The position numbers and the translations under genes are program-made. Positions 22,871-54,825 of a stretch of DNA of 64,000 nt are shown here, in pieces. This DNA is from Flavobacteriales bacterium ALC-1 (lineage in GTDB: Bacteria; Bacteroidota; Bacteroidia; Flavobacteriales; Flavobacteriaceae). A model generated the notes under the pieces. That model had not been told where the DNA came from. It saw only the letters and a program-made list of their open reading frames with translations, and searched no databases. Where the stretch lies: the NCBI GenBank assembly GCA_000171875.1, contig ABHI01000002.1, forward strand, positions 868,001 to 932,000. Reading direction: 5' to 3'. How positions within the stretch are numbered: the stretch's first letter is position 1; each line of letters starts with the position of its first letter.

Positions 22871-24124
22871 ATGGACGTACCAATTCAAAAGAAAAAATTC
22901 TCAAGTAAAAAATTAGGGCTCATTGGAGGAGTGTTAGCTATTATCGCTTTAATAGTTTATGTAATTATGCAAACCTCAGGGGGTTCTAAATTAAATGTAG
23001 AAAAAGAGCGTATTTCAATTCATACAGTTAGTAAAGCTGTATTTCAAGAAAACATACCAGTTAATGGTATTGTGTTGCCAATTACTACGATTTACTTAGA
23101 TGCTTTAGAAGGAGGTAGAGTAGAAGAGAAGTTTGTTGAGGATGGTGCAATGATGAAGAAGGGTGAACCAATTTTAAGATTATCGAATACAGATTTAGAG
23201 TTAAGCCTTGTTAATCAAGAAACTTCGGTTTATAACCTATTAACACAAATGCAGATTTCTCAAAATGCAGCACGTCAAAATACTATTAATAGGCAAAATC
23301 AATTTACAGACGTAGAAAATAACTTGATTGAAGCTGAGCGTATATATACTTTAAACAAGCGTTTATACGATAAGGGTGCAATAGGAAGAATGGATTACGA
23401 GTCTTCAAAAAATAATTTCGATTATCAAAAAGAACGTATGAAGTTAGCTGGGCAAGTATTATCTGAAGATTCTATTTCTTCTAAACTTGAAATTAATCAG
23501 GCTAAAAGTTCTTATGCAAGAACACAAAGTGCTCTAGAGCTAATGAGAAAGAAAGTTGGTGACTTAGTGGTGCGCGCACCAATAGATGGTCAGTTAACAT
23601 CGCTCGATGCTGAAATAGGTCAATCAATAAGTAAGGGGACACGGTTAGGACAAGTAGATGTTACAAGTGGTTACAAAGTGAGAGTAGACATTGATGAGCA
23701 TTATATTTCTAGAATCTATAATGGACAAACAGGAACATTTGTACTTAACAATAAAACATACACTTTAGTAATTAAGAAAGTATTCTCACAGGTAAATGAT
23801 GGTGGACGTTTTCAAGTTGATATGAGGTTTGAAGGTGACGTGCCAGAAGGAATTAGAAGAGGTCAAAACCTTCAGATTAGAGTTGCACTAAGTGCAGAGA
23901 AAGAAGCTTTATTGGTTGCTAAGGGAGGATTTTTCCAAAAAACTGGAGGAAACTGGGTGTTTAAAGTTAGTGAAGATGGCAATAGTGCCTATAAAGTAAA
24001 TGTTAGACTAGGAAGTCAAAATACGGAATATTACGAAGTTCTTGAAGGCTTAAATCCAGGTGATAAGGTTGTAACGTCTAGTTATGATTCTTTTGGAGAC
24101 GTTGAAGAATTAATTTTAAAATAA
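22871..24124 (+). CDS. membrane-fusion (HlyD/MacA-type) periplasmic adaptor
   Basis: A 417-residue protein with one N-terminal membrane helix (about 15-33, LGLIGGVLAIIALIVYVIM). A biotinyl/lipoyl-like half follows (EGGRVEEKFVEDGAMMKKGEPIL), then a long alpha-helical hairpin (about 100-215), the second lipoyl half (GDLVVRAPIDGQLTSLDAEIGQSI) and beta-barrel and membrane-proximal domains. Upstream in-frame codons from 22826 overlap the sigma-54 promoter, so the ATG at 22871 (MDVPIQKKKF) is the start. It should bridge the ABC permeases and the TolC-like protein encoded at the far end of the locus. It is the only adaptor for eleven permeases. Confidence 0.92.
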   Translation: MDVPIQKKKFSSKKLGLIGGVLAIIALIVYVIMQTSGGSKLNVEKERISIHTVSKAVFQENIPVNGIVLPITTIYLDALEGGRVEEKFVEDGAMMKKGEPILRLSNTDLELSLVNQETSVYNLLTQMQISQNAARQNTINRQNQFTDVENNLIEAERIYTLNKRLYDKGAIGRMDYESSKNNFDYQKERMKLAGQVLSEDSISSKLEINQAKSSYARTQSALELMRKKVGDLVVRAPIDGQLTSLDAEIGQSISKGTRLGQVDVTSGYKVRVDIDEHYISRIYNGQTGTFVLNNKTYTLVIKKVFSQVNDGGRFQVDMRFEGDVPEGIRRGQNLQIRVALSAEKEALLVAKGGFFQKTGGNWVFKVSEDGNSAYKVNVRLGSQNTEYYEVLEGLNPGDKVVTSSYDSFGDVEELILK

Positions 24125-24156
24125 AATAAATACAATCAATTAAAAATATAAATACA

Positions 24157-24834
24157 ATGATACAGATTAAGGATTTAGAGAAGTTTTACAGAACTGAAGA
24201 GGTTCAGACTATCGCGCTTAATAAACTATCCTTTGGTGTTAAAGAAGGTGAGTTTGTAGCTATAATGGGACCATCAGGTTGCGGTAAATCTACTTTGTTA
24301 AACATCTTGGGATTATTAGATGATCCAGATGGTGGTAGTTTTGTTTTCAATGGAACTGAAGTTGCTGGGTATAATGAACGTAAACGTTCCGAATTGCGTA
24401 AGCATAATATTGGTTTTGTATTTCAGAGCTTTAATCTTATCGATGAGCTTACGGTTTTTGAAAACGTAGAATTACCATTAATCTACACAGGTGTAAAACC
24501 AGCCGAACGCAAAAAGCAAGTGGAAGCAGTTTTAGAGAAAATGCAAATTATGCATCGTCGTAATCACTTTCCTCAACAATTGTCTGGTGGACAACAACAG
24601 CGTGTCGCTGTAGCAAGAGCGGTAGTTAATAATCCTAAATTAATTTTAGCAGATGAGCCAACTGGTAATTTGGATAGTACTAATGGCAACGAGGTTATGG
24701 ATTTATTAATAGACCTTAATGAAGCTGGGACTACAATTATCATGGTAACGCATAGTGAGCACGATGCAAAGTATAGTCATCGTATTATTAGAATGCTAGA
24801 TGGACAGAAAGTAACAGAGAATATTTTGGCTTAA
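24157..24834 (+). CDS. ABC transporter ATP-binding protein (MacB/LolD-like), ATPase 1
   Basis: A 225-residue nucleotide-binding domain. Walker A is GPSGCGKST, the Q-loop is VFQSFNLIDELTV, the signature is LSGGQQQRVAVARAV, Walker B is LILADEPTGNLDS (with D-loop Asp) and the H-loop is MVTHSE. All catalytic motifs are canonical. The LolD/MacB/FtsE class pairs with FtsX-fold permeases that move substrates by mechanotransmission from the periplasm rather than across the inner membrane. It follows the adaptor by 32 bp and precedes permease 1 by 168 bp containing two hairpins. Confidence 0.95.
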   Translation: MIQIKDLEKFYRTEEVQTIALNKLSFGVKEGEFVAIMGPSGCGKSTLLNILGLLDDPDGGSFVFNGTEVAGYNERKRSELRKHNIGFVFQSFNLIDELTVFENVELPLIYTGVKPAERKKQVEAVLEKMQIMHRRNHFPQQLSGGQQQRVAVARAVVNNPKLILADEPTGNLDSTNGNEVMDLLIDLNEAGTTIIMVTHSEHDAKYSHRIIRMLDGQKVTENILA

Positions 24835-24929: not shown

Positions 24930-24943
24930 GAAACCTTATCAAC

Positions 24944-25002: not shown

Positions 25003-27402
25003 ATGCTTAAAAATTATTTCAAAATAGCGTTTAGAAACCTTCTTAAAAACAAGGTGTATTCATTCATCAATATTTCTGGATTGGCAATAGGTATGGCTGC
25101 AACAATACTTATTGGACTTTGGATTTTTGATGAACTAAGCTACAATGATTATTTTGAGGATAAAGCAACTATAGCACAAGTTTTTCAGCATGAATCTAAT
25201 AATGGCGAAACTGATACGGGTCCTGCAATTCCTAGGCCATTAGAATTTGCCTTACGAGAAGATTACAATGATAATTTTAAGCATATCATTATGTCTTCTT
25301 GGGAGCAACCTAGATACCTAAAATTTGGGGAAACCAATATTTATCGACGAGGAAATGCCATGCAAGAAGGTGCAACTGAAATGTTGGATCTACAAATTGT
25401 TGAAGGTATTAGAGATGGTTTAAAAGAACAAAACGCCATAATGCTTTCTGAGTCTTCTGCCAAGGATTTATTTGGTTCAGAAACTGCCATTGGAAAAATA
25501 GTTAAAGTTAACAATCAGTATGACTTAATTGTGTCTGGTGTATACAAGGATATACCCGAGAACAATTCATTTAGTGATATGGATTATTTAATACCATGGA
25601 AGTTTTACGTGACAACACAACCGTGGTTAGAAAATGCTAAAACATCTTGGGGAAATAATTCATTTCAAATGTTTGTTCAGATTAATGAGAACACAACAAT
25701 GGACGAAATTACATCTAAAATTATAGATGTTAAGAAAAACGGACACCCAGATACAGTAGAATTTAATCCGCAAATTTTCCTTTTTCCTATGAAGGATTGG
25801 TATTTAAGAGGAGATTTCGAGAACGGAGTTCAAACAGGTGGACGAATTGAAAATGTTTGGTTATTCGGGATTATCGGTTTATTTGTATTGTTATTGGCTT
25901 GTATTAATTTTGTGAATTTAAGTACAGCACGTTCAGAAAAAAGAGCTACAGAAGTTGGTATTAGAAAATCGATAGGTTCACAACGCGGACAACTTATATT
26001 TCAATTTTTAAGTGAATCGTTTTTAATCGTTCTTCTATCATTTGTATTTGCACTTGGAATCGTATTATTATTTTTAAATGGATTTAATAACCTTGCTAGT
26101 AAAGCCATTGTTTTTCCTTGGACAAACATTCAGTTTTGGTTAGTGTCATTAGTATTTGTCATTATAACTTCATTCTTAGCAGGAAGTTATCCAGCATTGT
26201 ATTTATCATCTTTTAATCCAGTAGCCGTTTTAAAAGGAACTTTTAAATCAGGTCGTTATTCTTCATTACCTCGAAAAGTATTAGTTGTAACTCAGTTTAC
26301 AGTGTCTATAGCATTGATTATTGGAACTCTTGTAGTAATGAATCAAATTCAGTTCAGTAAAGATCGACCAGTAGGTTATGATAAAGAAGGTTTAATACAA
26401 ATTCCAGTAATGAGTTCGGAGTTTGTTGGCAAGCACGAACTAATGCGAACACAATTCGTAACTTCAGGTGGGGCAACGAGCATGACAGCAATGAGTAGTC
26501 CTACGACTAATGTATGGTCTAATCGAAGTGGCTATACTTGGGAAGGAAAGCCTGAAGGTTTTCAAGAAGATTTAGCGCATACCTCAGTGAATTATGATTT
26601 TATAAAAACATTAGGATTAAAACTTATTGAAGGACGAGGATTTTCAAGAGAATTTGCAACAGATTCTAATGCAGTTATTCTAAATAAAACTGCTGTTAAA
26701 TATATGGGTATAACAGATCCAATAGGTAAATACATTCGCGATTCGGATGTAGAAGATCCTTTTGAACCACTTAAGATTGTTGGTGTTATTGACGATATGA
26801 TTGTACAGTCACCTTACAGTCCTGTAAAACAAGCAATGTATGTTTTTGAAAAATATGGAAATATTGCATTTTATAACCTTAGGCTTAACCCTAACAAAAG
26901 TGTAAAAGAGAATTTGTCACTTATTGAAGGTGTCTTTAAAAAGAATTTCCCCAATACTCCATTCGATTACCAGTTTGTAGATGAGGAATACGGAAAGAAA
27001 TTTAGATCAGAAGAACGTATAGCTAGTTTGGCTAGAGTATTTACCGCATTAGCAATTTTTATTAGCTGTTTAGGTCTTTTTGGATTAGCATCATTTGTGG
27101 CCGAACAACGCACAAAAGAAATTGGTGTTAGAAAAGTACTCGGAGCATCAATCAGTCAATTATGGTTATTGCTTTCAAAGGATTTTATAACCTTAGTAGT
27201 TATTTCACTTTTAGTAGCATCTCCGTTAGCATATTATGTTATGGGAGAATGGTTGCAAAAGTTTAGTTATCGTACATCAGTGGGTTGGGATGTCTTTGCA
27301 ATTGCATGTTTTGGGGCCTTAATAATTACACTTATTACTGTGAGTTTTCAAGCCATTAAAGCAGCAACAGCAAATCCAGTAAAATCATTGCGAACAGAAT
27401 AA
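25003..27402 (+). CDS. FtsX/MacB-like ABC permease 1 (group A)
   Basis: A 799-residue protein with two fused MacB-type halves. An N-terminal helix (about 20-42) is followed by a large periplasmic domain, helices near 285-305, 335-360 and 378-400, a further helix near 430-450, a second periplasmic domain (to about 675) and three C-terminal helices. This gives eight helices and two FtsX domains in one chain. Hallmarks are LLLACINFVNLSTARSEKRA followed by TEVGIRKSIGS in the first half, and ISCLGLFGLASFVAEQRTKE followed by IGVRKVLGAS in the second. It carries the group A marker DFENGVQTGGRI before the second helix and ends NPVKSLRTE. Substrate unknown; it presumably works with ATPase 1, the adaptor and the TolC-like protein. 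Confidence 0.93.
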   Translation: MLKNYFKIAFRNLLKNKVYSFINISGLAIGMAATILIGLWIFDELSYNDYFEDKATIAQVFQHESNNGETDTGPAIPRPLEFALREDYNDNFKHIIMSSWEQPRYLKFGETNIYRRGNAMQEGATEMLDLQIVEGIRDGLKEQNAIMLSESSAKDLFGSETAIGKIVKVNNQYDLIVSGVYKDIPENNSFSDMDYLIPWKFYVTTQPWLENAKTSWGNNSFQMFVQINENTTMDEITSKIIDVKKNGHPDTVEFNPQIFLFPMKDWYLRGDFENGVQTGGRIENVWLFGIIGLFVLLLACINFVNLSTARSEKRATEVGIRKSIGSQRGQLIFQFLSESFLIVLLSFVFALGIVLLFLNGFNNLASKAIVFPWTNIQFWLVSLVFVIITSFLAGSYPALYLSSFNPVAVLKGTFKSGRYSSLPRKVLVVTQFTVSIALIIGTLVVMNQIQFSKDRPVGYDKEGLIQIPVMSSEFVGKHELMRTQFVTSGGATSMTAMSSPTTNVWSNRSGYTWEGKPEGFQEDLAHTSVNYDFIKTLGLKLIEGRGFSREFATDSNAVILNKTAVKYMGITDPIGKYIRDSDVEDPFEPLKIVGVIDDMIVQSPYSPVKQAMYVFEKYGNIAFYNLRLNPNKSVKENLSLIEGVFKKNFPNTPFDYQFVDEEYGKKFRSEERIASLARVFTALAIFISCLGLFGLASFVAEQRTKEIGVRKVLGASISQLWLLLSKDFITLVVISLLVASPLAYYVMGEWLQKFSYRTSVGWDVFAIACFGALIITLITVSFQAIKAATANPVKSLRTE

Positions 27403-27424: not shown

Positions 27425-29803
27425 ATGATTAAGAATTATTTCAAAATAGCACTCAGGAATTTATACAGACATAAAGGGTTTACTTTACTTAATATAAGTG
27501 GACTTGCTATAGGTATGACAGCTGGGTTTTTGGTTTTGCTTTATGTGAATTTTGAATTGAGCTATGACACTATGCATAGTAAGGGTGATTCTATATATAG
27601 AGTAGTTGCAGATATTGATACACCTTCTGAGAAGATAGAAGCTCCTATTGCAGCTTGGGCAGTTGGCCCAAATATAGAAAAGGAGTTTCCGGAGATATTA
27701 AAATTTACTAGAGTTCTAAATTCTAGCATAACTTTTGTTAGAGAGGGGACTAAATTTGCAGAAGATAATGTTATTGCTGTTGATTCCGCATTTTTTGAAA
27801 TTTTTGATTTTGAACTTATAAAAGGAGATAAAAAAGAATCATTAAAACTTCCGAATAGTATAGTAATCTCAGAGGATATAGCGGCTAAATATTTTGGTGC
27901 TGCAAACCCAATAGGACAAAGTTTAGTTGTAGAAAATTTTGATAATCCCGCTACAATAACCGGAGTGATGAAGAATATTCCTGAAAATTCTCATATTCAA
28001 GCAGATATATTGTTGTCAATGATTACTCATACAGCTCCGCCAAGTACTAACGATGAGCAATGGAGTAACTATAATCCATCTATTTATATTTTAACAACTA
28101 ACTCCACTAACCCTAAAAATTTAGAAGCCAAATTCCCAGACTTTCTCGAGAAAAGAACTGGAGATGAAATGCGAGAATCTAAAATGTTTGTAACCTTGTT
28201 TTTAGAACCTTTTAAAGATGTGTATTTAAAATCTGATCGTGGAAGCTCTATTTCTGGTAGCCTCAATAATGTATATATCTTTTCAATTATTGGGCTCTTC
28301 ATATTATTAATTGCTAGCATTAATTTTATCAATTTAGCAACTGCGCGATCTGTAGAACGAGCAAAAGAAGTAGGTATTAGAAAAGTTGTTGGTGCTGACA
28401 AAAACCAACTTGCCTTTCAATTTATAGGAGAATCAATTATTATATGTATTATGGCATTTTTCGTTGCTGTAGGTTTAACAGTATTAGGATTGCCTTATTT
28501 TAATGAGTTAGCTGGTAAAACTGTAAGCATAGGTGTTTTTGCTGAACCAATCAATATTCTTTATCTGTTTTTATTGGCATTAGCAATAGGTACTATTGCA
28601 GGCATTTATCCAGCAATAGTGTTATCATCATTTAGACCCATTAGCGTGCTTAAGGGAGGTTTTTCAACTGGGACTCGCGGTATTTTACTTCGCAAGAGTC
28701 TGGTGGTAGTTCAGTTCACTATTTCTATTGCATTAATAGTTGGAACTATTATTATATATAAACAGATGCAATTTATGCAAAATCAGGATTTAGGTTTTAA
28801 TGATGAGAATATAGTTGTTATTCCTTTAGATGTTATAGATAATCAAGATGCATTGATCAATAGTTTTTCTAAAATCCCTGGAGTAAAAGGTACGGCATTA
28901 TCTTCTAGTGTTCCTGGTATAGGAAATTCAGCAGCATATTCTGAAATAGAAAATCAGCAAGGTGATTTACAGATTGCGAATTTAGATTTATACTTTGTTA
29001 ATGAAGATTATATAAAGCAGTTAGGAATGGAAATCATCGCTGGAAGAGGGTTTTCAAGAGACTTTGCTTCAGATTCTAGTCAAGCAATGGTTATTAATGA
29101 AAAGACTGTTGCACTATTAGGCTATGCAAATGCAAAAGATGCAATTGGTGCTAATTATCAACAATGGGGAAGTAATGGTGAAGTAATTGGTGTTGTTAAA
29201 GATTTTAATTTTAGATCTCTGCAAGAAGAGATTAGCCCAATAACCATGCGTTTAGATCCAACAAGCACTAATGTTATAACTATTAAAATAGACGGTAATA
29301 ATACACTACAAACTTTAGAGTCTATTAAGAAAACATGGAGTTCTCAAATGTCTGGGGACCCATTAGAATATTATTTTTTAGATGAGCTTTTCAATCAACA
29401 ATATCAGGCAGAAAAGCAATTCGAAAGCTTATTTCTAAGCTTTGCTTTATTAGCGATTTTTATTTCTTGTCTTGGTCTTCTTGGTCTAGCAGCTTATAGT
29501 ACCATACAACGAAAACGAGAGATTGGCATACGTAAAATTATAGGTGCTTCTGTAAGCAGTATTATTAATCTTCTTTCAAAAGAGTTCATAAAACTAGTGG
29601 CAATTGCATTTATAATATCTGCACCTATAGCTTGGTATTTTATGCATAGTTGGTTAGAAGATTTTGCTTATAAAATTGATATAAAATGGTGGATGTTTGT
29701 TATAGCTGGACTAGGTTCTATGATTATAGCTTTAGTTACTGTAAGTTTTCAAGCAATTAAGGCAGCTACATCTAACCCTGTAAAATCATTACATACTGAG
29801 TAA
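27425..29803 (+). CDS. FtsX/MacB-like ABC permease 2 (group B)
   Basis: 792 residues with the same eight-helix double-FtsX layout as permease 1. FtsX cores read ASINFINLATARSVERAKEV plus GIRKVVGADKN, and CLGLLGLAAYSTIQRKREIG plus IRKIIGASVSS. The segment before the second helix reads KDVYLKSDRGSSISGSLNNV, placing it with the group that lacks the FENG-GGRI marker. It begins 22 bp after permease 1. The first 18 coding bases after the initial codons (AATTATTTCAAAATAGC region) are nearly identical in DNA to several other copies, although the periplasmic domains are strongly diverged. Confidence 0.92.
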   Translation: MIKNYFKIALRNLYRHKGFTLLNISGLAIGMTAGFLVLLYVNFELSYDTMHSKGDSIYRVVADIDTPSEKIEAPIAAWAVGPNIEKEFPEILKFTRVLNSSITFVREGTKFAEDNVIAVDSAFFEIFDFELIKGDKKESLKLPNSIVISEDIAAKYFGAANPIGQSLVVENFDNPATITGVMKNIPENSHIQADILLSMITHTAPPSTNDEQWSNYNPSIYILTTNSTNPKNLEAKFPDFLEKRTGDEMRESKMFVTLFLEPFKDVYLKSDRGSSISGSLNNVYIFSIIGLFILLIASINFINLATARSVERAKEVGIRKVVGADKNQLAFQFIGESIIICIMAFFVAVGLTVLGLPYFNELAGKTVSIGVFAEPINILYLFLLALAIGTIAGIYPAIVLSSFRPISVLKGGFSTGTRGILLRKSLVVVQFTISIALIVGTIIIYKQMQFMQNQDLGFNDENIVVIPLDVIDNQDALINSFSKIPGVKGTALSSSVPGIGNSAAYSEIENQQGDLQIANLDLYFVNEDYIKQLGMEIIAGRGFSRDFASDSSQAMVINEKTVALLGYANAKDAIGANYQQWGSNGEVIGVVKDFNFRSLQEEISPITMRLDPTSTNVITIKIDGNNTLQTLESIKKTWSSQMSGDPLEYYFLDELFNQQYQAEKQFESLFLSFALLAIFISCLGLLGLAAYSTIQRKREIGIRKIIGASVSSIINLLSKEFIKLVAIAFIISAPIAWYFMHSWLEDFAYKIDIKWWMFVIAGLGSMIIALVTVSFQAIKAATSNPVKSLHTE

Positions 29804-29826: not shown

Positions 29827-32253
29827 ATGATCAGGAATTATTTTAAAATTGCTTGGAGAAGTCTTCAAAAAAATAAATTGCAGACCAGTATTAATTTACT
29901 TGGGTTAACTATAGGTACGGTTTGTTGTTTAAGTATCTTAGTTTATGTGTTTGCGCAATTAGGTTACGACACGCATCATGATGATGCAGATGCTGTTTAC
30001 AGAGTTAGGACAATAATTGACGATCCAAGTACACCTCAATTTAATGCAGCATCTGCTAGCCCACCAATTGCTATGGCAATGAAAGCTGATTTTCCAGAAG
30101 TTATTGAAGCTGCACGATTAGTTTATATGGGTGAAGGAACAGAAAATTTAATACGTTCAAGTGATAGTAATAATGGGTTTTATGAGCCTAGAGGTTATTT
30201 AGCAGATGCGACAGTATTTAATATTTTTAAGTATAATTTTATTGAAGGAAATCCTAGTACTGCTTTAGTTGAACCTAATACAGTAGTATTATCTTCTACT
30301 TTGTCAAAAAAACTATTTGGTAATATTCCTGTTTTAAATAAAACCATAATATCTGGAAGTGGAGAACAGCAACTTACTTTAACAATTACAGGTGTTTTTG
30401 ATGATAATGTAAAAGAAAAATCGCATTTAAATCCGAATTATTTTGTGACTATGAACTCACCAGGTTTGGCAGAGTTTGTTAGAACAAATCAAAACTATGC
30501 CACTCAGAATTTTACCTATAGTTATGTGAAATTAAGTGATGTGGAAAGTGCAAAGCTTATTGAAAAAAAATTGCCAGAGTTTTTAAATGCACGTGGAGCT
30601 AAGGATTTTGCAGCTGTTGGATTTACTAAAAAATTAGTATTGCAAAAGGTTAGTGATATTCATTTATATTCTAAAGGGATTTCTCGTCAAATAGGTTCAG
30701 TTTCTGATATTAGCTACTTATATTTATTAATTGTTTTGGCTTTGTTTATACAATTAGTAGCTTGTGTTAATTTTATCAACTTAAGTACAGCAAGAGCTAA
30801 TAAACGTGCTAAAGAAATTGGAGTTCGTAAGGCCATTGGTGCTGATAAAAAATCGTTAATAAGTCAATTTTTAGGAGAATCTGTTTTGCTCTCCTTATTT
30901 GCTACACTATTAAGTATTCCAATTACTGCATTAGTATTACCATTAGTTAATCAACTAACTCAAGGAAATGTTGATTACATGTCATTATTAAATTGGAGAG
31001 TGTTATTAATCTTGCTTGTTTTAGCAATTTTGACGGGTTTGATTGCTGGGATTTATCCAGCTCTGATAATGTCTTCAATAAAACCAATTCGCGTATTAAA
31101 AGGCTCTATTACTTTAAATTCTGGCAGTGGTGTATTTCGTAAAGCCTTGGTTGTATTTCAGTTCATTATTTCTATTGGTTTAATAGCAGCTGTTTCAATT
31201 ATTACACAACAAGTTCAATATGCTCAAAATAAAGATATGGGCTATAATAAAGATAATTTAATAGCAATACGCTTAGGTACAGAAGAAGCCTATACACAGT
31301 ACCAAACTTTAAAAACAAACATGAGTAAGATTTCAGGAATAAAATCAGTTTCTGGATGTAATTTATATCCATCACAGTTTGTTCGTGGTGATTTGGGAGC
31401 ACATTTACCAGGAGGAGATTCTAAAAATCAAATTCTAGTAAAGCATAATGGGGTTAATACAGATTACTTAAATACTGTTGGAACAAAACTATTGGCTGGA
31501 AGAGAATTACGCAGTGATGATGAAAACCAAATTATGGTTAATAAGTCTACCATAGATGCCTTAAATATTGAACTAGATGATGCGATTGGTTCAACTATGC
31601 TTTCGGCTTATGAAGGAAATGTTGATACATATGAAATTGTTGGAGTAACCGAAGATTTTCATTTTGCTTCATTAAAGGAAGAAGTAGAACCTTTAATGAT
31701 GTATTTAGATAATAGCCTAGAATGGCTTATTGTTAAAACCGAAACCAAGGATTTTGAAAACATACTTAGTCAAATGGAAATGTCTTGGAAACAGACTAAT
31801 AAAACTACTCCATTTGTATACACATTTGTAGATAAAGAAGTAGAGAAATTGATTGCTGAAGAAAAGCGCTTAGCTAACATTTCGGTTGTGTTTACTGCTT
31901 TAGCCATATTAATAAGTTGTTTAGGCTTATTTGGACTAATATCTTTTATGGCAGAACAAAAAAAGAAAGAGATAGGTATTCGTAAAGTATTAGGTGCAAG
32001 TGTAAATTCTGTAATGAAAATGCTAACGAAAGATTTTGTGATTCTCATAATTATTGCCTTTGTAATAGCAGCTCCATTGGCCTATTATTTAATGGAAAAC
32101 TGGTTGCAAGATTTTACATATAGAATTTCAATAAGCTGGTGGGTTTTTCTAGTAGCTGGTATAGTCACAATGATAGTAACATTGTTAACAGTGAGTTTTC
32201 AAGCTGTAAAGGCGGCAACAGCAAATCCTGTCAAATCATTACGAACAGAATAA
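29827..32253 (+). CDS. FtsX/MacB-like ABC permease 3 (group B)
   Basis: 808 residues. The N-terminal helix contains an unusual Cys pair (LTIGTVCCLSILVYVF). The FtsX motifs are VACVNFINLSTARANKRAKE plus IGVRKAIGADKKS, and CLGLFGLISFMAEQKKKEIG plus IRKVLGASVNS. The group B marker DIHLYSKG precedes the second helix. The periplasmic domains differ from its neighbours, so substrate or partner specificity may differ. It starts 23 bp after permease 2, behind the conserved linker AATCAATCAAAAATCGAA. Confidence 0.92.
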   Translation: MIRNYFKIAWRSLQKNKLQTSINLLGLTIGTVCCLSILVYVFAQLGYDTHHDDADAVYRVRTIIDDPSTPQFNAASASPPIAMAMKADFPEVIEAARLVYMGEGTENLIRSSDSNNGFYEPRGYLADATVFNIFKYNFIEGNPSTALVEPNTVVLSSTLSKKLFGNIPVLNKTIISGSGEQQLTLTITGVFDDNVKEKSHLNPNYFVTMNSPGLAEFVRTNQNYATQNFTYSYVKLSDVESAKLIEKKLPEFLNARGAKDFAAVGFTKKLVLQKVSDIHLYSKGISRQIGSVSDISYLYLLIVLALFIQLVACVNFINLSTARANKRAKEIGVRKAIGADKKSLISQFLGESVLLSLFATLLSIPITALVLPLVNQLTQGNVDYMSLLNWRVLLILLVLAILTGLIAGIYPALIMSSIKPIRVLKGSITLNSGSGVFRKALVVFQFIISIGLIAAVSIITQQVQYAQNKDMGYNKDNLIAIRLGTEEAYTQYQTLKTNMSKISGIKSVSGCNLYPSQFVRGDLGAHLPGGDSKNQILVKHNGVNTDYLNTVGTKLLAGRELRSDDENQIMVNKSTIDALNIELDDAIGSTMLSAYEGNVDTYEIVGVTEDFHFASLKEEVEPLMMYLDNSLEWLIVKTETKDFENILSQMEMSWKQTNKTTPFVYTFVDKEVEKLIAEEKRLANISVVFTALAILISCLGLFGLISFMAEQKKKEIGIRKVLGASVNSVMKMLTKDFVILIIIAFVIAAPLAYYLMENWLQDFTYRISISWWVFLVAGIVTMIVTLLTVSFQAVKAATANPVKSLRTE

Positions 32254-47131: not shown

Positions 47132-49513
47132 ATGATAAGTACACATTTTAAAATAGGTATCAGAAATGTTCTAAAGAACAAAGGCTTTTTTATACTTAAT
47201 GCTGGCGGATTGATTATTGGTTTGACTTCAGTAATCCTAATAAGTTTATGGGTTCATAGTGAATTAAGTTTTAATAAAGAATTAACCAATTACAATACGA
47301 TTGCTAGTGTCATGCAAAATAGAACATTTGCAGGTGAAATAGAGACTAATATAGGTCAGGCTATGCAATTAGCACCTGAGCTAAGAAGTCAATATGAAAG
47401 TCATTTTAAGCATATTGTAACTGCCACTAGGCGTAATGATTATGAAATAACTTATAATAAAAATATTGTTGTAGTTGATGGAAGATTTGCAGAACCTGGT
47501 TTGACACATCTTTTAGATTTGAAAATGATTAAAGGTAGTAAAGACGCACTTTTAGATATATCATCTGTTTTAATTTCAGAAAGTACATCCAAAAGCATAT
47601 TTGGTGATCGTGATCCAATAGGTAAAACTTTAAAGTTAAACTCCTCTCTTGAAATGAAAGTTGCTGGTGTATACAAAGATTTGCCAGAAAATTCGAATTT
47701 TAAAAAATTGAATTTTATAGCACCATGGGAGCGATTAAAAACTAGTCAGAACTACGAAGGGAGATTGGGTTGGGGAAATCGTTGGTTTCAAGTTTTTGTA
47801 CAATTAAATGAGGGTAGTACTCTTGGTAGTGTATCTGGACTTATTAAAAATGTTGTTAAAACAAATAACAGTAAAGATCCAGGGAATCCGGAATTATTTC
47901 TTTTTCCAATATCAAAATGGCATTTATATTCTGAATTTGAAAATGGTATTAGTACAGGAGGAAAGGTTGAATCTGTAAAAATATTTAGTATTATCGGAAT
48001 TTTTATACTGCTTTTAGCATGTATTAATTTTATAAATTTAACTACAGCAAATGCATTAAAAAGAGGTAAGGAAGTTGGTGTTAGAAAAACATTAGGATCT
48101 ACTCGTAAACAATTGATTTTTCAATTCTTCACTGAATCTTTCTTACTTATTTTATTTTCATTTTGCATAGCATTAGCCTTAGCTTTTATATTACTCCCTC
48201 AATTTAATACGATTACGCTAAAAGATGTTTCTGTTCCTTTTGATACATGGCCATTTTGGCTAGCTAGCCTTTCATTAATAGTTATAACTGCTGTTTTAAG
48301 TAGTCTTTATCCTTCTGTTTATTTGTCTTCTTTTAGACCTGTTAAAGCATTAAAAGGTGTAAACGATAATAATAAAAGTCCCTTAGTATTAAGGAAAACA
48401 CTTATTGTAACGCAATTTGTGATTTCTAGTGTGTTGATTATTGGAACATTAACCATTGTGAGTCAAATTAACCATGTTAAAGATAGACCGATAGGATTTG
48501 ATAAGGATTTATTGGTAAGCGTACCTATAAATAATGATAAAGTATTACAAAGCTTTGAATCTATACAAAATGAACTTTTAGCATCTATTCATATTGATCA
48601 AGTAACAGCTTCAGATGTAAAAGTAACTAGTACATATACAACAAATGGAGGCTTTGATTGGAATGGGAAGGATCCAAATTTTGAAGAAGAATTTTATACG
48701 ATACGAGCTACTCTTGGTTTTGGTGAAATGATAGATTGGGAGATCTTAGAAGGTAGGGATTTTTCTCAAGAATTTGCTAGTGATTCATTAGCTTTTCTAG
48801 TTAATGAAACAGCTGTAAAATATATGAATCTAGAAAACCCCATTGGAGAATTTATTAATTGGGGAGGTGACGAGAATTATAAAATTATTGGTGTCGTTAA
48901 GGATATGGTGACACTATCTCCTTTTGATCCTATTGTACCTACCTTGTACGTCTTACATCAAGGAGATTATTTAAATTATATAAATATAAAAATAGCATCT
49001 AATACAGATAATGTTGAAGCTGCAATGAATACGATAGAAAGTGTTTTTCATAAATATAACCCAGAAAATTTATTTACTTATACATTTTTAGATGATGAGT
49101 ATCAAGAGAACTTTATTGCTGAAAAGCGAACGGCTAAATTAGTAGGTATATTTTCAATTGTTGCAATATTTATAAGTTGTTTAGGGGTTTTAGGTCTTTC
49201 TATATATATGGCTGTTCAACGAAAAAAAGAAATCGGTATACGGAAAGTTTTAGGTGCTTCGGTAAAATCCATTTGGCAATTATTATCAAAACAATTTATA
49301 GTACTTGTTATTATTTCATTGTTAATTGCAATGCCTATAGGATATTACCTTTCTTCGCAATGGTTGTTAGAATATAGTTATCGCATAGATATAAACTTTT
49401 GGATTTTTGCATTAGCTGGAGGTATTACAATTGGAATTACTATAGTAACTGTAAGCTTTCAAGCCATTAAAGCTGCAATTGCTAATCCAGTAGATAGTTT
49501 AAAAACGGAATAA
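47132..49513 (+). CDS. FtsX/MacB-like ABC permease 10 (group A)
   Basis: 793 residues. The group A marker is EFENGISTGGKVESVKIF. The FtsX cores are ACINFINLTTANALKRGKEV plus GVRKTLGSTRKQ, and CLGVLGLSIYMAVQRKKEIG plus IRKVLGASVKS. It ends KAAIANPVDSLKTE like permease 9. By eye its second periplasmic half resembles that of permease 1 (VTSTYTTNGGFDWNGK region and PIGEFINWGG segment), so 1 and 10 may be related copies placed at opposite ends of the array. Confidence 0.92.
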   Translation: MISTHFKIGIRNVLKNKGFFILNAGGLIIGLTSVILISLWVHSELSFNKELTNYNTIASVMQNRTFAGEIETNIGQAMQLAPELRSQYESHFKHIVTATRRNDYEITYNKNIVVVDGRFAEPGLTHLLDLKMIKGSKDALLDISSVLISESTSKSIFGDRDPIGKTLKLNSSLEMKVAGVYKDLPENSNFKKLNFIAPWERLKTSQNYEGRLGWGNRWFQVFVQLNEGSTLGSVSGLIKNVVKTNNSKDPGNPELFLFPISKWHLYSEFENGISTGGKVESVKIFSIIGIFILLLACINFINLTTANALKRGKEVGVRKTLGSTRKQLIFQFFTESFLLILFSFCIALALAFILLPQFNTITLKDVSVPFDTWPFWLASLSLIVITAVLSSLYPSVYLSSFRPVKALKGVNDNNKSPLVLRKTLIVTQFVISSVLIIGTLTIVSQINHVKDRPIGFDKDLLVSVPINNDKVLQSFESIQNELLASIHIDQVTASDVKVTSTYTTNGGFDWNGKDPNFEEEFYTIRATLGFGEMIDWEILEGRDFSQEFASDSLAFLVNETAVKYMNLENPIGEFINWGGDENYKIIGVVKDMVTLSPFDPIVPTLYVLHQGDYLNYINIKIASNTDNVEAAMNTIESVFHKYNPENLFTYTFLDDEYQENFIAEKRTAKLVGIFSIVAIFISCLGVLGLSIYMAVQRKKEIGIRKVLGASVKSIWQLLSKQFIVLVIISLLIAMPIGYYLSSQWLLEYSYRIDINFWIFALAGGITIGITIVTVSFQAIKAAIANPVDSLKTE

Positions 49514-49538: not shown

Positions 49539-51923
49539 ATGATAAAGAGTTATATAAGAATAGCATGGAGAAACATCAAAGGAAGCCCTTTGTTTTCCTC
49601 AATAAACATATTAGGTTTAACTTTAAGTTTAGCGATAGCTACTTTACTATTTCTATTTATTCATCACGAGAACAGTTTTAATACGTCATATGCCAAAAAA
49701 GAGCAGATCTATAGAGTTATATCTGAAGCCAAAGAGTACGATGAAAAACTTTATCCTACTGCAGCCGCAATGGTTGCACCAACAAGTGTTATCGATATTC
49801 CAGAAGTTTTAGACGCTGTAAGACTTTACAAACACGGCTTTGGAAAATCAGCGTATATTAGTACTGGTACATCAGAGTTTATTGAATCGTCATTGTTTTA
49901 TGCAGATTCAAGCTTGTTTAATGTTTTCGATTTAAAACTGACACAAGGTTTAGTTGATGAAGCGTTAAAAAAGCCAAACACTGCAATAATTTCAAAAAAT
50001 ACGGCACGACGTTATTTTGGAACTGACCAAGTTATAGGGAAAGCATTAAGAGTAGATAACAGAACAGATATTGAAATTACTGGTGTATTTGAAGATTTGC
50101 CTTCAAATGTGTCTTTAGACGGTAATATCTATATTTCGTTTGCAACAAGTTTTTTTGCCAAACGACCAACTTGGTCTAATATAAGTTTAGAAACGTACCT
50201 TTTAACAACTAAAGATGTAAAACAAGAAGTTTTAAAAGACAAGCTTGTGGATATGTTGCATAAAAATGTTGAAGAAGAATCACGTTGGTATACTTTAGAC
50301 CTTCAGCCTTTAAACGAAGTGCATTTGTATTCAAGTCATTTGGAGAGTGGTGTTAGTTCTCGAAAAGGATCTATAGAGCAAGTGAAAAGTTTGACTTGGC
50401 TCGCTTTACTAATTCTTGTAATTGCTTGTATTAATTATATGAATTTAACAACTGCTCGCTCTCAAAAACGTGCAAAAGAAGTTGGTATTAGTAAAACACT
50501 AGGCGCCTCAACTAAAAATTTAATCGCTAGATTTTATGCTGAAACAGGTTTAATAACTGCCATTTCAATTATTTTAGGTTTAGTTTTGGCATTCATTTTT
50601 CTTCCAATGTTTAACCAACTTTCGGGTAAAGAAATTCCGAATTCTATGCTCACTTCAGCTGTTTTTATATTATCTATTATAGGTGTTTGGCTAGTGTCAA
50701 CACTTTTGGCTGGTTCTTATCCAGCGATATATATGTCTAGCCTTTCGGCTAAAAAAATATTAAATGGTGGAAAAGTGGGCTCATTTTGGGCAACAAATAT
50801 TAGAAAAGGTTTGGTGGTCATACAGTTTATTGCTTCAACCGTCTTAATTGTTGGTGTATTTGTAATCTACAATCAGCTCAAATTTATTCAAGATAAAGAT
50901 TTAGGTTTTGATAAAGAACAAGTCGTAGCTATTTCAATTAGTGGAATACGACAAGCAAATACTGTAGATTTATTAACTCAAAAATTAGAAGCTTTGCCAA
51001 TGGTTTCAGAAGTAGGAGCTGCTCAGGGTTATCCTGGAAAATCAGTTAGTGGAAGAACAGTTAGTAATCCACTTAATACCAATGCAAGTTTGGCTGTGCA
51101 AACCAACAGAGTAGGAGCAAAGGCATTAGAAGTTGTAGGCTTAAATTTTATTGCTGGAAAAAATTTGCCAATGGTTAAAGCTGAAGGCGATTCGTTAATT
51201 GAAGTAGTAGTAAACAAAAAAATCACAGAGTTTTTAGGCTTTACTCCAGAAGAGGCAATTGGTAAAAATATTCAAATGCTTCCAAGTGATAATGCATATA
51301 TTGTTGGAGTTGTGGACGATTTTCATTATGCTTCATTACGTGAGCCAATTGGTGCTTATGCGTTTCATAATTATCCAAGCGAACGAAAAGAGTTTTTATT
51401 AATTAAAATGAATGTTTCAGACCTTAGTCAAAGCATCACACAATTAGATGAAACATATAAGTCTACAGTGCCAAACGTACCTTTTGATTATAGTTTTTTA
51501 GATGAAAATATTGAGAAACTTTATATAGAAGAAAAACAAACTGCTACCATAGGAATGATTTTTTCAATATTAGCTGTCTTTGTTGCTTGTTTGGGACTTT
51601 TTGGTTTAGCAGCATTTACTGCAGAACAACGTGATAAGGAAATTAGCATCCGTAAAGTCCTTGGTGCTTCAGTTTCTGGCATTGTAAAACTACTTTCAAT
51701 TGACTTTGTAAAGTTAGTTGCTATTGCTTTAATTATTGCTTTTCCATTAGCATATTATATTATGAATAACTGGTTGCAAGATTTTGCTTTCAGAATTAAT
51801 ATCAGTTGGCATCCATTTGTGTTTACAGCAATTTGTGCGCTTGCAATTGCATTACTTACTGTAAGTATTCAAGCTATAAAAGCGGCATTATCAAACCCTA
51901 TTAAAAGTTTGAAAACAGAATAA
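49539..51923 (+). CDS. FtsX/MacB-like ABC permease 11 (group B)
   Basis: 794 residues. The N-terminus IKSYIRIAWRNIKGSPLFSS and a long first helix (LTLSLAIATLLFLFIHHE) set it apart. The group B marker is EVHLYSSHLESGVSSRKGS. Both FtsX cores have a changed residue: KEVGISKTLGAS (Arg to Ser) in the first, and KEISIRKVLGAS (Gly to Ser) in the second. It ends NPIKSLKTE. It is the last permease; a head-GIN gene, ATPase 2 and the TolC-like gene follow directly. Confidence 0.92.
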   Translation: MIKSYIRIAWRNIKGSPLFSSINILGLTLSLAIATLLFLFIHHENSFNTSYAKKEQIYRVISEAKEYDEKLYPTAAAMVAPTSVIDIPEVLDAVRLYKHGFGKSAYISTGTSEFIESSLFYADSSLFNVFDLKLTQGLVDEALKKPNTAIISKNTARRYFGTDQVIGKALRVDNRTDIEITGVFEDLPSNVSLDGNIYISFATSFFAKRPTWSNISLETYLLTTKDVKQEVLKDKLVDMLHKNVEEESRWYTLDLQPLNEVHLYSSHLESGVSSRKGSIEQVKSLTWLALLILVIACINYMNLTTARSQKRAKEVGISKTLGASTKNLIARFYAETGLITAISIILGLVLAFIFLPMFNQLSGKEIPNSMLTSAVFILSIIGVWLVSTLLAGSYPAIYMSSLSAKKILNGGKVGSFWATNIRKGLVVIQFIASTVLIVGVFVIYNQLKFIQDKDLGFDKEQVVAISISGIRQANTVDLLTQKLEALPMVSEVGAAQGYPGKSVSGRTVSNPLNTNASLAVQTNRVGAKALEVVGLNFIAGKNLPMVKAEGDSLIEVVVNKKITEFLGFTPEEAIGKNIQMLPSDNAYIVGVVDDFHYASLREPIGAYAFHNYPSERKEFLLIKMNVSDLSQSITQLDETYKSTVPNVPFDYSFLDENIEKLYIEEKQTATIGMIFSILAVFVACLGLFGLAAFTAEQRDKEISIRKVLGASVSGIVKLLSIDFVKLVAIALIIAFPLAYYIMNNWLQDFAFRINISWHPFVFTAICALAIALLTVSIQAIKAALSNPIKSLKTE

Positions 51924-51957: not shown

Positions 51958-52701
51958 ATGAAAAATTTAAAATACATAACAATCATAGTTTTGACTTTTT
52001 TAGGCCAGGTTGTTATAGCGCAAACAAAGAAAGAAGTTGAATCTTTTAATAAAGTCATTATTAGCCCTCATATTGAAACCACTTTCGTTCAAGGAGATGA
52101 AGAATCGGTAACTATTTTAGAGAACACCTTGTCAGACGATAAAGTAAATATTGAAGTTAATGGCGGGACTCTTAGAGTGTATTTAGATGATGCCAAAGTA
52201 ACAACAAAACATAAGAAAGTAGTTAAAAATGGTGTTAAGATGAAAGTGCCTATTTACAAAGGCAAAGTATTGACTTTAAAAGTAACATATAAAAATATTG
52301 ATAATTTATCATTGAGAGGTGAGCAAAGTACAGTTTGCGAGAGTCTAATTAGTGTTGAAAAATTTGATCTTAAAATTTATGGAGAATCTCAAGTTACATT
52401 TAATGAAGTGAATATTAAAGATTTTGACGTTGATGTATATGGTGAGAGTCAATTAACAATAGAAAAAGGAACTACAGATAATCAGCATATCACAGCTTAT
52501 GGGGAAGGGGAAATCAACCTAATAGAAGTAGATAATAAAACTTCTAGATTAAAAGCTTATGGTGAAGCTGAGTTTAGAATTCAGTCTTCTAAAAACATAA
52601 AATTTACAGCTTACGGTGAAGCTGAATTATATTATAAAGGAACAGCAGAAGTAAGTAAAGGCTTAAGTTTTGGTGATTCTCAAATCAATCGTATCGATTA
52701 A
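51958..52701 (+). CDS. exported head-GIN domain protein (DUF2807)
   Basis: A 247-residue protein with a signal peptide (YITIIVLTFLGQVVIAQ). The domain is a repetitive beta-solenoid-like DUF2807 fold: short strands with the recurring pattern YGESQV, YGESQL, YGEGEI, YGEAEF, YGEAEL at intervals of about 20 residues, ending FGDSQINRID. It is located in the periplasm or at the surface. DUF2807 proteins are frequent in Bacteroidota, but their role is not established. Placement between permease 11 and ATPase 2, with 34- and 14-bp gaps, argues that it serves this transporter, perhaps as a ligand-binding or sensing part. Confidence 0.85.
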   Translation: MKNLKYITIIVLTFLGQVVIAQTKKEVESFNKVIISPHIETTFVQGDEESVTILENTLSDDKVNIEVNGGTLRVYLDDAKVTTKHKKVVKNGVKMKVPIYKGKVLTLKVTYKNIDNLSLRGEQSTVCESLISVEKFDLKIYGESQVTFNEVNIKDFDVDVYGESQLTIEKGTTDNQHITAYGEGEINLIEVDNKTSRLKAYGEAEFRIQSSKNIKFTAYGEAELYYKGTAEVSKGLSFGDSQINRID

Positions 52702-52715: not shown

Positions 52716-53390
52716 ATGACAAATACACTATTAAGTCTAAATGAAGCAACAAGAACTGTAAATTCAGGAAGTAATAAGGTTACACTACTAGATAATATCG
52801 ATTTACAAGTTAAAGAAGGTGAGTTTATTTCACTAATGGGACCATCTGGCTCTGGGAAATCAACACTATTGAATTGTATCGGAATGTTAGATAGTTTTAC
52901 TGGAGGAGGTTACACATTTTTGGGAGAACCAGTTCATAGCATGAAAGAAAGAAATAGATCTAAATTATATAAAGAATATATAGGGTTTGTATTTCAGGCT
53001 TATCACTTAATTGATGAGTTAAATGTTTGGGAAAATATTGAAACGCCATTACTATATAAGAATGTAAAATCTTCTGAACGTAAAGCTTTAGTCGCTGATA
53101 TGTTAGATCGTTTTAGTATTGTAGGTAAAAAAGATTTGTTTCCTCAGCAACTAAGTGGTGGGCAACAACAACTAGTGGGAATTGCTAGAGCATTGATAGG
53201 GAGGCCAAAATTGATTTTGGCAGATGAGCCAACAGGAAACCTTAACTCTAAACAAAGTACAGAAATTATGGAATTGTTTTCTCAGCTAAATAAAGAAGGA
53301 GTTACTATAATTCAAGCTACCCATTCAGAGAAGAATGCCTCATATGGCTCAAGAATCATAAATTTATTAGATGGGAAAGTAGTCTCATAA
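52716..53390 (+). CDS. ABC transporter ATP-binding protein, ATPase 2 (divergent)
   Basis: A 224-residue nucleotide-binding domain of the MacB/LolD class. Walker A is GPSGSGKST, the Q-loop is VFQAYHLIDELNV, the signature is LSGGQQQLVGIARAL and Walker B is LILADEPTGNLNS, followed by QATHSE. Two normally conserved positions differ from ATPase 1: the Arg after LSGGQQQ is Leu, and the D-loop Asp (GNLD) is Asn. It could be a slow or regulatory subunit, or could pair asymmetrically with ATPase 1. It lies 14 bp after the GIN gene and 13 bp before the TolC-like gene. Confidence 0.93.
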   Translation: MTNTLLSLNEATRTVNSGSNKVTLLDNIDLQVKEGEFISLMGPSGSGKSTLLNCIGMLDSFTGGGYTFLGEPVHSMKERNRSKLYKEYIGFVFQAYHLIDELNVWENIETPLLYKNVKSSERKALVADMLDRFSIVGKKDLFPQQLSGGQQQLVGIARALIGRPKLILADEPTGNLNSKQSTEIMELFSQLNKEGVTIIQATHSEKNASYGSRIINLLDGKVVS

Positions 53391-53403
53391 TAACAAGGAA
53401 ATC

Positions 53404-54825
53404 ATGATAAATAAACACATTATTTTTACCCTCATAGTTTTGATGGGTTTGGTAGGATACACTCAAGATTTAAATAAGAAAAGCTATTCATTAGATGAGT
53501 GTATTGCTATTGCTTTAGAGAATAATCTCGATTTAAAATCGGCAGATTTACGAGCTAATTCTGCTAAAGTAAATCATCAACAATCTAAAGCCAATTTTTT
53601 ACCAAGTATTAATGGTAATTTTAATTTAGGTGTTAATGATGGTCGAAGTATAGATCCATTTACCAATGATTTTATCAATCAGGAATTAACATTCTCTAAT
53701 ATGGGTTTAAGTTTAGATATGACTATTTTTAATGGTTTTAGATTGTTAAACACAGCAAAACAAAATCGTTTAAATAGAAAGGCTTCCGAGTTAGAGAAGG
53801 AGGCAGCTCAACAAGATCTAATTTTAAATGTTACTTTAACTTATTTGCAAGTTTTGAATAGTAAAGCAGTTTTGGACTTAACAAAACAGCGCTATCAGAC
53901 CACTAAAGAGCAATTAAAAATTCAAAAAGATTTTTATGAAAATGAATCTGGAAATCCAGCTGATTATGCTGATATTTTAGGGCAGATTGCTAGTGATGAA
54001 ACTAGTGTTTTAAATTCTGAATCTAGTTTGAATAATGCAAGATTAGCACTTGTAAGGCTTATGAACATTCCTGATAATGTAAATATTGATGCTAAGTCTA
54101 TACTTTTAGATTTTGAAAAATATAATTTATCAGCAATTGAGGTTTATAATGAGGCACTTCAAAATTTAGCAACATTCAAAGCTAGAGAAATGCGCATTGA
54201 AGCGGCTAAAAAAGGAGTTAATGTAGCAAAATCTCAATTTACACCAGAGGTATCTGTTTTTGGGGGTGTTAATACCAATTATTCTAGTGCAGCACAGCTT
54301 TTTAATTCAACTGGAACAAGTATTGTAGAAACTGGTGATTTTGTAACTGTAGGCACACAAGATATACCTGTTATGACAGAACAAACCAATTTTGAAGCAG
54401 AAACTATTGGCTATAAAGATCAGTTAGATAACAATCTAAATACTGTAGTTGGTATTGCTGTAAGTGTACCACTTTTTAATGGATTTAGAGCAAAAAATAA
54501 TGTGGCTCTGGAAAAGATTAGAGTAGAAGAGTCTATTTTAGAATTAGAGCGTACACATTTAGATATTAAAAACGCCATCTCACAGGTTCATTTTGATATG
54601 GAAGCCGTTTACAACCGTTATCAAAGTTTATTAAGACAAGTTGAAGCTTATGAAGAATCGTACCGAATTAATGAAATACGATTTAATAACGGAGTGTCGA
54701 ATTTTTTAAACTATGTGACAAGCAAAAATAATTTAGACAATGCGAAAGTGAATCTAACCAACGCGAAGTACGAGTATTTATTACGTGTGAAAGTTTTAGA
54801 TTATTATAGAGGAGGAGTTAATTAA
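53404..54825 (+). CDS. TolC-family outer membrane efflux protein
   Basis: A 473-residue protein with a signal peptide (HIIFTLIVLMGLVGYTQ). Two outer-membrane efflux protein repeats are present: SYSLDECIAIALENNLDLK starts the first, and a long helical hairpin region and the segment VVGIAVSVPLFNGFRAKNNV mark the second. It closes with a helix containing INEIRFNNGVSNFLNYVTSK. It should form the trimeric outer-membrane channel for the adaptor and permeases. It is the last gene of the third sigma-54 unit, and its stop overlaps the stop of the convergent aldo/keto reductase gene by 4 bp. Confidence 0.94.
   Translation: MINKHIIFTLIVLMGLVGYTQDLNKKSYSLDECIAIALENNLDLKSADLRANSAKVNHQQSKANFLPSINGNFNLGVNDGRSIDPFTNDFINQELTFSNMGLSLDMTIFNGFRLLNTAKQNRLNRKASELEKEAAQQDLILNVTLTYLQVLNSKAVLDLTKQRYQTTKEQLKIQKDFYENESGNPADYADILGQIASDETSVLNSESSLNNARLALVRLMNIPDNVNIDAKSILLDFEKYNLSAIEVYNEALQNLATFKAREMRIEAAKKGVNVAKSQFTPEVSVFGGVNTNYSSAAQLFNSTGTSIVETGDFVTVGTQDIPVMTEQTNFEAETIGYKDQLDNNLNTVVGIAVSVPLFNGFRAKNNVALEKIRVEESILELERTHLDIKNAISQVHFDMEAVYNRYQSLLRQVEAYEESYRINEIRFNNGVSNFLNYVTSKNNLDNAKVNLTNAKYEYLLRVKVLDYYRGGVN

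Follow-up and report, generated by a model that had tools for sequence, protein, structure and literature searches.

Eleven double-FtsX permease genes beside one set of adaptor, ATPase and channel genes in Flavobacteriales bacterium ALC-1

We analyzed a stretch of 64,000 nucleotides from Flavobacteriales bacterium ALC-1 (contig ABHI01000002.1, contig region 868001-932000 of the 3.83 Mb genome), in the following called the window, which harbors a tandem array of genes for double-FtsX permeases. Eleven consecutive open reading frames of 783-814 codons each lie head to tail on the plus strand and span positions 25003-51923. They are bounded at the 5' side by genes for a periplasmic adaptor and an ATPase (ATPase-1) and at the 3' side by genes for a GIN-domain protein, a second ATPase (ATPase-2) and a TolC-like channel, so that adaptor, MacB-fold permeases, MacB/LolD-type ATPase and outer-membrane efflux protein (OEP) are all encoded within one locus. 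A preliminary description had reported eleven intact permease genes in tandem together with one adaptor, one TolC-like channel and two ATPases, and both statements are confirmed. Beyond that description, we found the DUF2807 gene (51958-52701), a divergent pair of kinase and regulator genes (19979-22664) and three matching regulatory units ahead of the adaptor, p8 and p9, each composed of a dyad and, at a distance of 70 bp, a box of the pattern GG-N10-AC. The features of the locus are listed below; counts refer to 17 complete congeneric loci.

19979..21322, minus strand: sensor histidine kinase; two transmembrane helices (about residues 10-28 and 36-54) with about seven residues between them
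21312..22664, minus strand: NtrC-type response regulator with sigma-54 interaction domain (GAFTDA loop) and Fis-type helix-turn-helix; divergent to the array
22755..22775, plus strand: dyad AGTGTATCAAAACCGAACACT of unit 1, putative regulator site
22825..22844, plus strand: promoter-like box of unit 1, GG-N10-AC, sigma-54-like
22871..24124, plus strand: periplasmic adaptor, HlyD/MacA-like membrane fusion protein; ATG at 22871
24157..24834, plus strand: ATPase-1, LolD/MacB-type; canonical LSGGQQQR, D-loop Asp
25003..27402, plus strand: permease p1, core; in 15 of 17 loci
27425..29803, plus strand: permease p2, accessory
29827..32253, plus strand: permease p3, accessory; in 1 of 17 loci, orthologs in other genera
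32266..34644, plus strand: permease p4, accessory
34667..37051, plus strand: permease p5, accessory
37076..39460, plus strand: permease p6, accessory, the most divergent
39487..41931, plus strand: permease p7, core; in 16 of 17 loci
41999..42019, plus strand: dyad of unit 2, upstream of p8
42069..42088, plus strand: promoter-like box of unit 2, upstream of p8
42131..44563, plus strand: permease p8, accessory
44613..44633, plus strand: dyad of unit 3, upstream of p9
44683..44702, plus strand: promoter-like box of unit 3, upstream of p9
44751..47102, plus strand: permease p9, core; in 16 of 17 loci, with a regulatory unit ahead of it in 16 of 16
47132..49513, plus strand: permease p10, accessory
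49539..51923, plus strand: permease p11, accessory
51958..52701, plus strand: DUF2807 (GIN-domain) protein; signal-peptide-like start, read by eye
52716..53390, plus strand: ATPase-2; LSGGQQQL and D-loop Asn replacing R and D
53404..54825, plus strand: TolC-like outer-membrane efflux protein (OEP)

All eleven permeases matched the Pfam families MacB_PCD and FtsX, and the full domain tables of p1, p7 and p9 contained two MacB_PCD stretches and two FtsX stretches each. Hydropathy counts gave eight helices in 10 of the 11 proteins and nine in p6, where the extra window is the coupling segment of half 2. Eight long helices were also found in a structure model of p1 (11 sequences in the alignment, mean predicted local distance difference test score (pLDDT) 77.4, predicted template modelling score (pTM) 0.69). 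The permeases are eight-helix fusions of two halves whose ATPases are encoded by separate genes instead of being fused N-terminally, and fused MacB-type halves with separate ATPases are a known topology according to the available part of PMC5985334. Coupling motifs were discernible in both halves of all eleven proteins, with departures in half 1 of p4, p5, p6 and p11. Pairwise identity among the eleven is 26-42%. Within-genome paralogs (539 pairs from 21 loci) share on average 22.5% and 24.3% identity in the two periplasmic domains and 40-52% in the membrane segments. The preliminary description had proposed an eight-helix plan with two FtsX domains as well as diverged periplasmic domains next to conserved cores and termini; both proposals hold, with p6 deviating in the helix count. 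Outside the array, the same genome encodes a lone double-FtsX permease (contig region 325021-327387, an open frame of 889 amino acids).

The same description had considered eleven copies at one locus to be extreme. We sought the adaptor in 40 other congeneric genomes and found it at 90-93% identity in 17 of them, while 23 gave distant matches only. All 17 loci were read; one (G159; such labels are our own for genomes, loci and contigs) stops at a contig end, and the complete set therefore comprises 16 relatives plus the window. These 17 loci contain 4, 4, 4, 4, 4, 5, 5, 5, 5, 5, 5, 6, 6, 9, 10, 11 and 12 permeases. By adaptor identity (91-94%), the closest named loci belong to Lacinutrix, Gaetbulibacter, Psychroserpens, Winogradskyella and Formosa records. 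The organism itself groups with Winogradskyella (Flavobacteriaceae). For the wider family, 120 genomes of different genera, our own included, were searched with the ADOP model, and 36 of the 119 others, picked via this search, were retested with a profile of the window's own permeases; 34 of the 36 encode a double-FtsX permease (E<=1e-100), that is, at least 34 of 119 family genomes. Double-FtsX permeases are hence widespread in the family. Counted by eye from coordinates, as in the named genomes, the longest runs have 27 (G018), 15 (G108), 13 (G102), 11 (G077) and, in G086 and G019, 10 permeases each, and the run at the locus in 22 named genomes ranges from one (Lentiprolixibacter) to eight. 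In G018 the 27 permeases lie between one set of OEP, adaptor and ATPase-1 genes and one ATPase-2 gene, and the run also holds one alpha/beta-hydrolase-like and one GIN-like gene, as judged by sequence. This run occupies C2:754170-821657 (L040-L043) in a genome with 51 profile matches, single-FtsX ones included. Confluentibacter sediminis (G197) has a second run of six more distant double-FtsX permeases on the opposite strand (C42:366618-381918), approximately 38 kb from its main array. Copy number at the locus or its counterpart in relatives thus varies from 1 to 27, and eleven is not extreme, since a congener has 12 and a genome of another genus 27. The preliminary view would also have lost ground if eleven-copy loci were both standard and already characterised; large arrays do recur, whereas no published characterisation was found in the openly licensed literature, which is weak evidence of absence.

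Around the variable permeases the remaining genes form a constant frame. In the 17 complete congeneric loci the regulator, adaptor, ATPase-1, DUF2807 and ATPase-2 genes are kept in the same order, with ATPase-2 split in one of them (G151). Of the 17 congeneric loci besides the window, 15 show the channel, and the two other stretches (G149 and G159) end before its position. Likewise, in 79 of 80 named loci the kinase and regulator genes are divergent to the adaptor gene with ATPase-1 next, and in the remaining one (L137) the sequence breaks off behind the regulator at a contig end; the regulator adjoins the adaptor in 80 of 80. Twelve of the 80 come from the same genomes as the congeneric loci and were left out of the identity correlations described below. 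Grouping of the 104 permeases of the 17 loci at a 56% identity cut resulted in 21 ortholog groups, with p1 in 15 loci, p7 and p9 in 16 each and the other 18 groups in 1-12. The order of p1, p7 and p9 (first copies) is kept wherever they co-occur. On a tree of the frame proteins the presence of all 21 groups requires at least 41 changes, and of the 15 groups found in 2-16 loci, x4 alone was more clustered than shuffled labels at the 0.05 level (0.042), followed by x3 with 0.070, in a test that is weak for groups in 2-3 or 15-16 loci. Moreover, identity to the window's proteins follows that of the adaptor for the regulator (rho 0.93, n=85), the kinase (0.87, n=83) and ATPase-1 (0.86, n=84), and it does not for p3 (-0.32, n=13), p6 (0.15, n=11) and p7 (0.24, n=37). 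The permease values cover matches of at least 56% identity, most named loci showing their first permeases only, and the analysis was confined to proteins other than ATPase-2, OEP and DUF2807, for which ATPase-1 cross-matches or the small number of loci reaching that far interfere. Because p3, p6 and p7 do not follow the adaptor, some permeases appear to be partly separate in history from the frame, an outcome expected both from exchange among genera and from the sorting of old variants. In sequence terms, regulator, kinase, adaptor and ATPase-1 make up a conserved frame around near-constant p1, p7 and p9 and a patchy accessory set. The interchangeable permeases postulated earlier are accordingly best described as exchangeable units in a fixed frame, with 4-12 permeases from 21 groups in the 17 loci and 27 permeases in G018.

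Domain shuffling was rejected as the main source of permease diversity. The two periplasmic domains differ by 22 or more points of identity in only 2 of 10,296 pairs, and the permeases therefore behave as whole cassettes. For selection, we used 120 congeneric ortholog pairs with a synonymous substitution rate (dS) below 1.5. The median ratio of nonsynonymous to synonymous rates (dN/dS) is 0.06-0.13 for p1, p2, p4, p5, p7, p8, p9, p10 and p11, where p4, p5, p10 and p11 are represented by one pair each, and p3 and p6 had no usable pairs. By region, medians are 0.04-0.06 in the membrane parts and 0.104 and 0.085 in the two periplasmic domains (119 pairs each, maximum 0.336), so that diversifying selection on the periplasmic domains is unsupported at the level of regions. 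These ratios indicate purifying selection on nine permease groups. They also bear on a neutral explanation, in which the array grew by tandem amplification, only the three core permeases matter and the accessory ones are transient passengers. The accessory groups are indeed patchy and many of them rare, and one congener (G136) has four p1-type copies in tandem, which demonstrates that local duplication happens. However, purifying selection acts on those accessory groups for which pairs could be tested, the full-length matches listed in the family and in named genomes lack internal stops, and several accessory permeases have orthologs in other genera and hence are not fresh copies. We regard neutral amplification as quite improbable.

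The three regulatory units would link the array to its neighboring regulator gene. In the gap between regulator and adaptor we identified a near-invariant box, TTTGGCATCATCTTCACTATAT, in 16 aligned sequences, with G130 and G123 set aside for their long gaps. The exact box occurs in 24 of 60 congeneric genomes, our own included, and a reversed-pattern control in 0 of 60. Adaptor presence was typed in 40 of these 60 genomes: the exact box is found in 15 of 17 with the adaptor and in 0 of 23 without it, and the remaining two adaptor genomes carry it at 1-2 mismatches, while eight further box genomes lie outside the adaptor search. In the window the box copies start at 22825, 42069 and 44683 (none in 100 shuffles at up to three mismatches), each with an upstream dyad AGTGT...ACACT. 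The 18 congeneric loci together contain 40 boxes, with the dyad at -70 in 39 cases and at -71 in one; 18 boxes are located at the head, 17 before p9 copies (covering all 16 loci with p9), and the remaining five at other sites. Of the 80 named loci, 54 match the box at the head; in 52 of them a dyad-like match (up to three substitutions) lies at -70 or -71. Allowing up to two mismatches, we found three copies of the dyad in the 3.83 Mb genome, all of them in the array, which makes induction of the regulatory unit directly testable.

The genome encodes rpoN and the regulator has a sigma-54 interaction domain. The consensus of sigma-54 promoters consists of GG, ten bases and GC at -24/-12, with an activator site further upstream. 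We call the box sigma-54-like because GG-N10 is kept and AC replaces the consensus GC. The dyads are probably bound by the regulator. In two relatives the same unit also precedes other genes: G149 has two inserted genes, for a beta-lactamase-family protein (PF00144) and an S41 peptidase (PF03572), each with a box and dyad of its own, and G123 has another PF00144 gene with its own box and dyad between regulator and adaptor. Their presence ties hydrolysis to the same response.

The two ATPases are unequal. ATPase-1 is canonical in 20 of 20 sequences, while ATPase-2 has LSGGQQQL for LSGGQQQR and Asn for Asp in the D-loop in 19 of 19 sequences from four genera, and the ATPase-2 of G018 carries the same changes. 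ATPase matches of the named loci fall into 11 with L and N and 80 with R and D, with no mixed ones; in our genome only ATPase-2 shows the L/N changes among 20 distinct motif pairs, namely those extractable from the 30 best ATPase loci. Since this asymmetry is conserved, it suggests an unequal ATPase pair on the unequal permease halves. Heterodimeric ABC transporters with a degenerate site combine two different ATPases, one of which has conserved deviations. An obligatory heterodimer of ATPase-1 and ATPase-2 was also considered and is weakened by the loci of Polaribacter vadi B2M17 (L136, two permeases) and Lentiprolixibacter (L149, one permease), which have no ATPase-2 at the locus itself, the only part of these genomes that was searched for it. 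The pair is therefore not obligatory, unless ATPase-2 is encoded elsewhere. As these loci hold only two and one permeases, ATPase-2 may be an additional partner of bigger arrays. In G151 (L003:16035-16705) ATPase-2 is split into two overlapping frames of 98 and 140 amino acids, by sequence error or inactivation.

The locus as a whole can also be absent. In six array-lacking congeners the genes that flank the array elsewhere are adjacent, and the DsbD-like gene is separated from the reductase gene by 10 to approximately 1,900 bases. One flank consists of trp-like genes, a rhodanese-like gene and the DsbD-like gene (45-48% identity to the window's), the other of aldo/keto reductase and methionine-sulfoxide-reductase-like genes, all named from the sequence. 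The six are the best matches of eight array-lacking genomes with the aldo/keto reductase, two at 46-48% identity having been set aside; the other 15 of the 23 array-lacking genomes gave no aldo/keto reductase match at E<=1e-60. In one of the six (G153, L161:10128-10588) the array site retains two pieces of the kinase gene's 3' part, immediately next to the 3' end of the channel gene. This remnant is the scar expected from a single deletion of everything between kinase and channel. No such kinase/channel remnant was found in the other five array-lacking congeners, and for this reason loss, as against never having had the locus, is only presumed there. In the window, the aldo/keto reductase and methionine-sulfoxide-reductase-like genes occupy 54822-58381; they adjoin the array in many congeners and stay in the six array-less ones. 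Further downstream, at 58673-62948, two adjacent and similar TPR-like sensor kinases are followed by a LuxR-type response regulator, as read from the sequence.

Taken together, we consider it reasonably likely that the locus encodes an inducible type VII (MacB-superfamily) ATP-binding cassette (ABC) envelope system with one chassis for a whole set of exchangeable permeases. This chassis would consist of adaptor, ATPase-1, usually ATPase-2, and the TolC-like channel, and would be shared by all permeases. Each permease is a single-chain pseudodimer with two FtsX halves and two MacB-type periplasmic domains and would recruit two ATPase subunits at its two coupling segments. By mechanotransmission, a hydrophobic or envelope-located substrate, perhaps a different one for each permease, would then be lifted from the inner membrane at its periplasmic face and passed to the adaptor and channel, or handed to a secreted hydrolase. 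The kinase, which has no periplasmic sensor domain and is encoded near the transporter genes, would respond to membrane stress or to the state of the transporter itself, sensing through the membrane or a transporter. Binding of the regulator to the dyads would activate three promoters of equal build, giving the putative units adaptor-ATPase1-p1..p7, p8 and p9-p10-p11-DUF2807-ATPase2-OEP. In evolution, whole permease genes would be gained, duplicated and lost within the fixed frame, and the locus can be lost in one piece.

The weakest step in this scheme concerns the substrates, which may be hydrophobic or membrane-active; this is suggested by the analogy to MacB, Bce and YbbAP and by the co-regulated hydrolases. 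The system may also serve to defend the cell against membrane-active or antimicrobial compounds. More tentatively, and rather doubtfully in its full extent, the locus could be an envelope defence bank, where a two-component system switches a shared pump frame on and permeases, in relatives also hydrolases, are collected like cassettes, each for a different membrane-active compound, with 1-27 specificities per locus. In the usual view of ABC efflux systems, each energy and exit module has a single permease. If many permeases indeed share one set of adaptor, ATPase and channel, specificity could evolve through the gain and loss of genes while the machine itself stays as it is, and the locus would be a natural library for what MacB-type periplasmic domains recognise.

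Several observations weigh against a single inducible chassis with exchangeable permeases. The box is unmatched at 26 of the 80 named-locus heads, mostly those with adaptors below 78% identity, and a search for the dyad gave no match in G086, G102, G108 and G018, four loci from other genera whose adaptors are distant. The AC at -12 departs from the consensus, and a plain sigma-54 consensus scan with up to two mismatches remained at chance level (31 found versus 31.5 expected). Of the 11 named loci whose sequence was followed as far as the channel, 2 have no ATPase-2 at the locus. In G086, G102, G108 and G018 both channel (OEP 24-28%) and adaptor (38-41%) are distant, and the chassis is therefore not one orthologous set throughout the family. 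Regarding exchange, the identities of p1 (rho 0.71), p2 (0.82), p8 (0.79) and p9 (0.64) largely follow that of the adaptor, the clustering test is weak for groups found in only 2-3 loci, and the purifying-selection result leaves out p3 and p6.

The fold of the permeases bears on two further explanations. Over its whole length the p1 model best matches YbbP (Z 24.9, root-mean-square deviation (rmsd) 8.8, 512 aligned residues; a second match with Z 21.6 and 644 aligned). Differences in state or in domain placement may account for the high rmsd. Next in rank, with Z 17-21, are a Porphyromonas gingivalis permease domain (20.8), BceB, MacB and YtrF; in a sequence search of solved structures the same P. 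gingivalis domain (3is6) and MacB rank first. The match to YbbP should be taken as a likeness of fold and not of function. According to the available part of PMC12646458, YbbAP works with the hydrolase TesA, proposedly on compounds drawn from the inner membrane. A Lol- or YbbAP-like handling of lipids or lipoproteins that feeds secreted enzymes instead of efflux, which partly overlaps the shared-chassis reading, would fit this partnership and the GIN-domain and hydrolase genes that sit in arrays. However, adaptor and channel genes belong to the locus and the window's own array contains no hydrolase gene, and we judge this alternative unlikely.

About equally unlikely, in our estimate, is a Bce-like sensing and defence function, in which the permeases mainly detect or strip membrane-bound antimicrobials and pass a signal on to the sensorless kinase, with channel-mediated export in a secondary role; this, too, partly overlaps the shared-chassis reading. 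With two helices and a loop of about seven residues outside, the kinase resembles intramembrane-sensing kinases, BceB is among the fold matches of p1, and hydrolases stand under the same regulatory unit in two relatives. In Bce modules, transporter and kinase form one complex, for which a flux-sensing mechanism is proposed in the available part of PMC10314905. An adaptor and a TolC-like channel, the latter conserved among congeners as described above, speak against this explanation.

Returning to the shared-chassis reading, the locus resembles several known systems in part. Its double permeases align over their full length with ADOPs (TIGR03434), and membership in this family was rejected, as the best match of the genome reached 348.1 bits versus a cut-off of 622.3. 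ADOPs are named as orphans, whereas a complete chassis is present here. In the accessible portion of PMC11573002, two Dyadobacter genomes are reported with 28 and 33 ADOP-named genes of unknown function. Models of the darobactin exporter (Dar) are among the NCBIfam matches of the adaptor, both ATPases and the scanned permeases, and Dar membership was likewise rejected, all scores being below the cut-offs (ATPase-1 296/375, ATPase-2 239/375, adaptor 174/450, permeases 115-147/700 bits).

Like E. coli YbbAP-TesA, the array encodes single-chain double permeases with two MacB-type halves, two periplasmic domains and two coupling segments. YbbP has two additional linking helices and thus ten in total, in contrast to the eight of p1, and the available part of PMC12646458 describes one permease with two copies of one ATPase and no adaptor or channel. 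The combination of an FtsX-type transporter with a sensorless kinase is shared with Bce modules, from which the locus differs by its NtrC/sigma-54-type regulator, adaptor, outer-membrane channel and two full periplasmic domains per permease. Bce modules are not known to include an adaptor or channel. With MacAB-TolC the locus has in common an adaptor, MacB-type permease domains, a LolD/MacB-type ATPase and a TolC-like channel in one place. MacB itself has a fused N-terminal ATPase and is a homodimer of four-helix units, which the array permeases are not. Here, the ATPases are encoded by separate genes, the permeases are two-half fusions, many of them accompany one chassis, and a divergent two-component pair and internal regulatory units are added.

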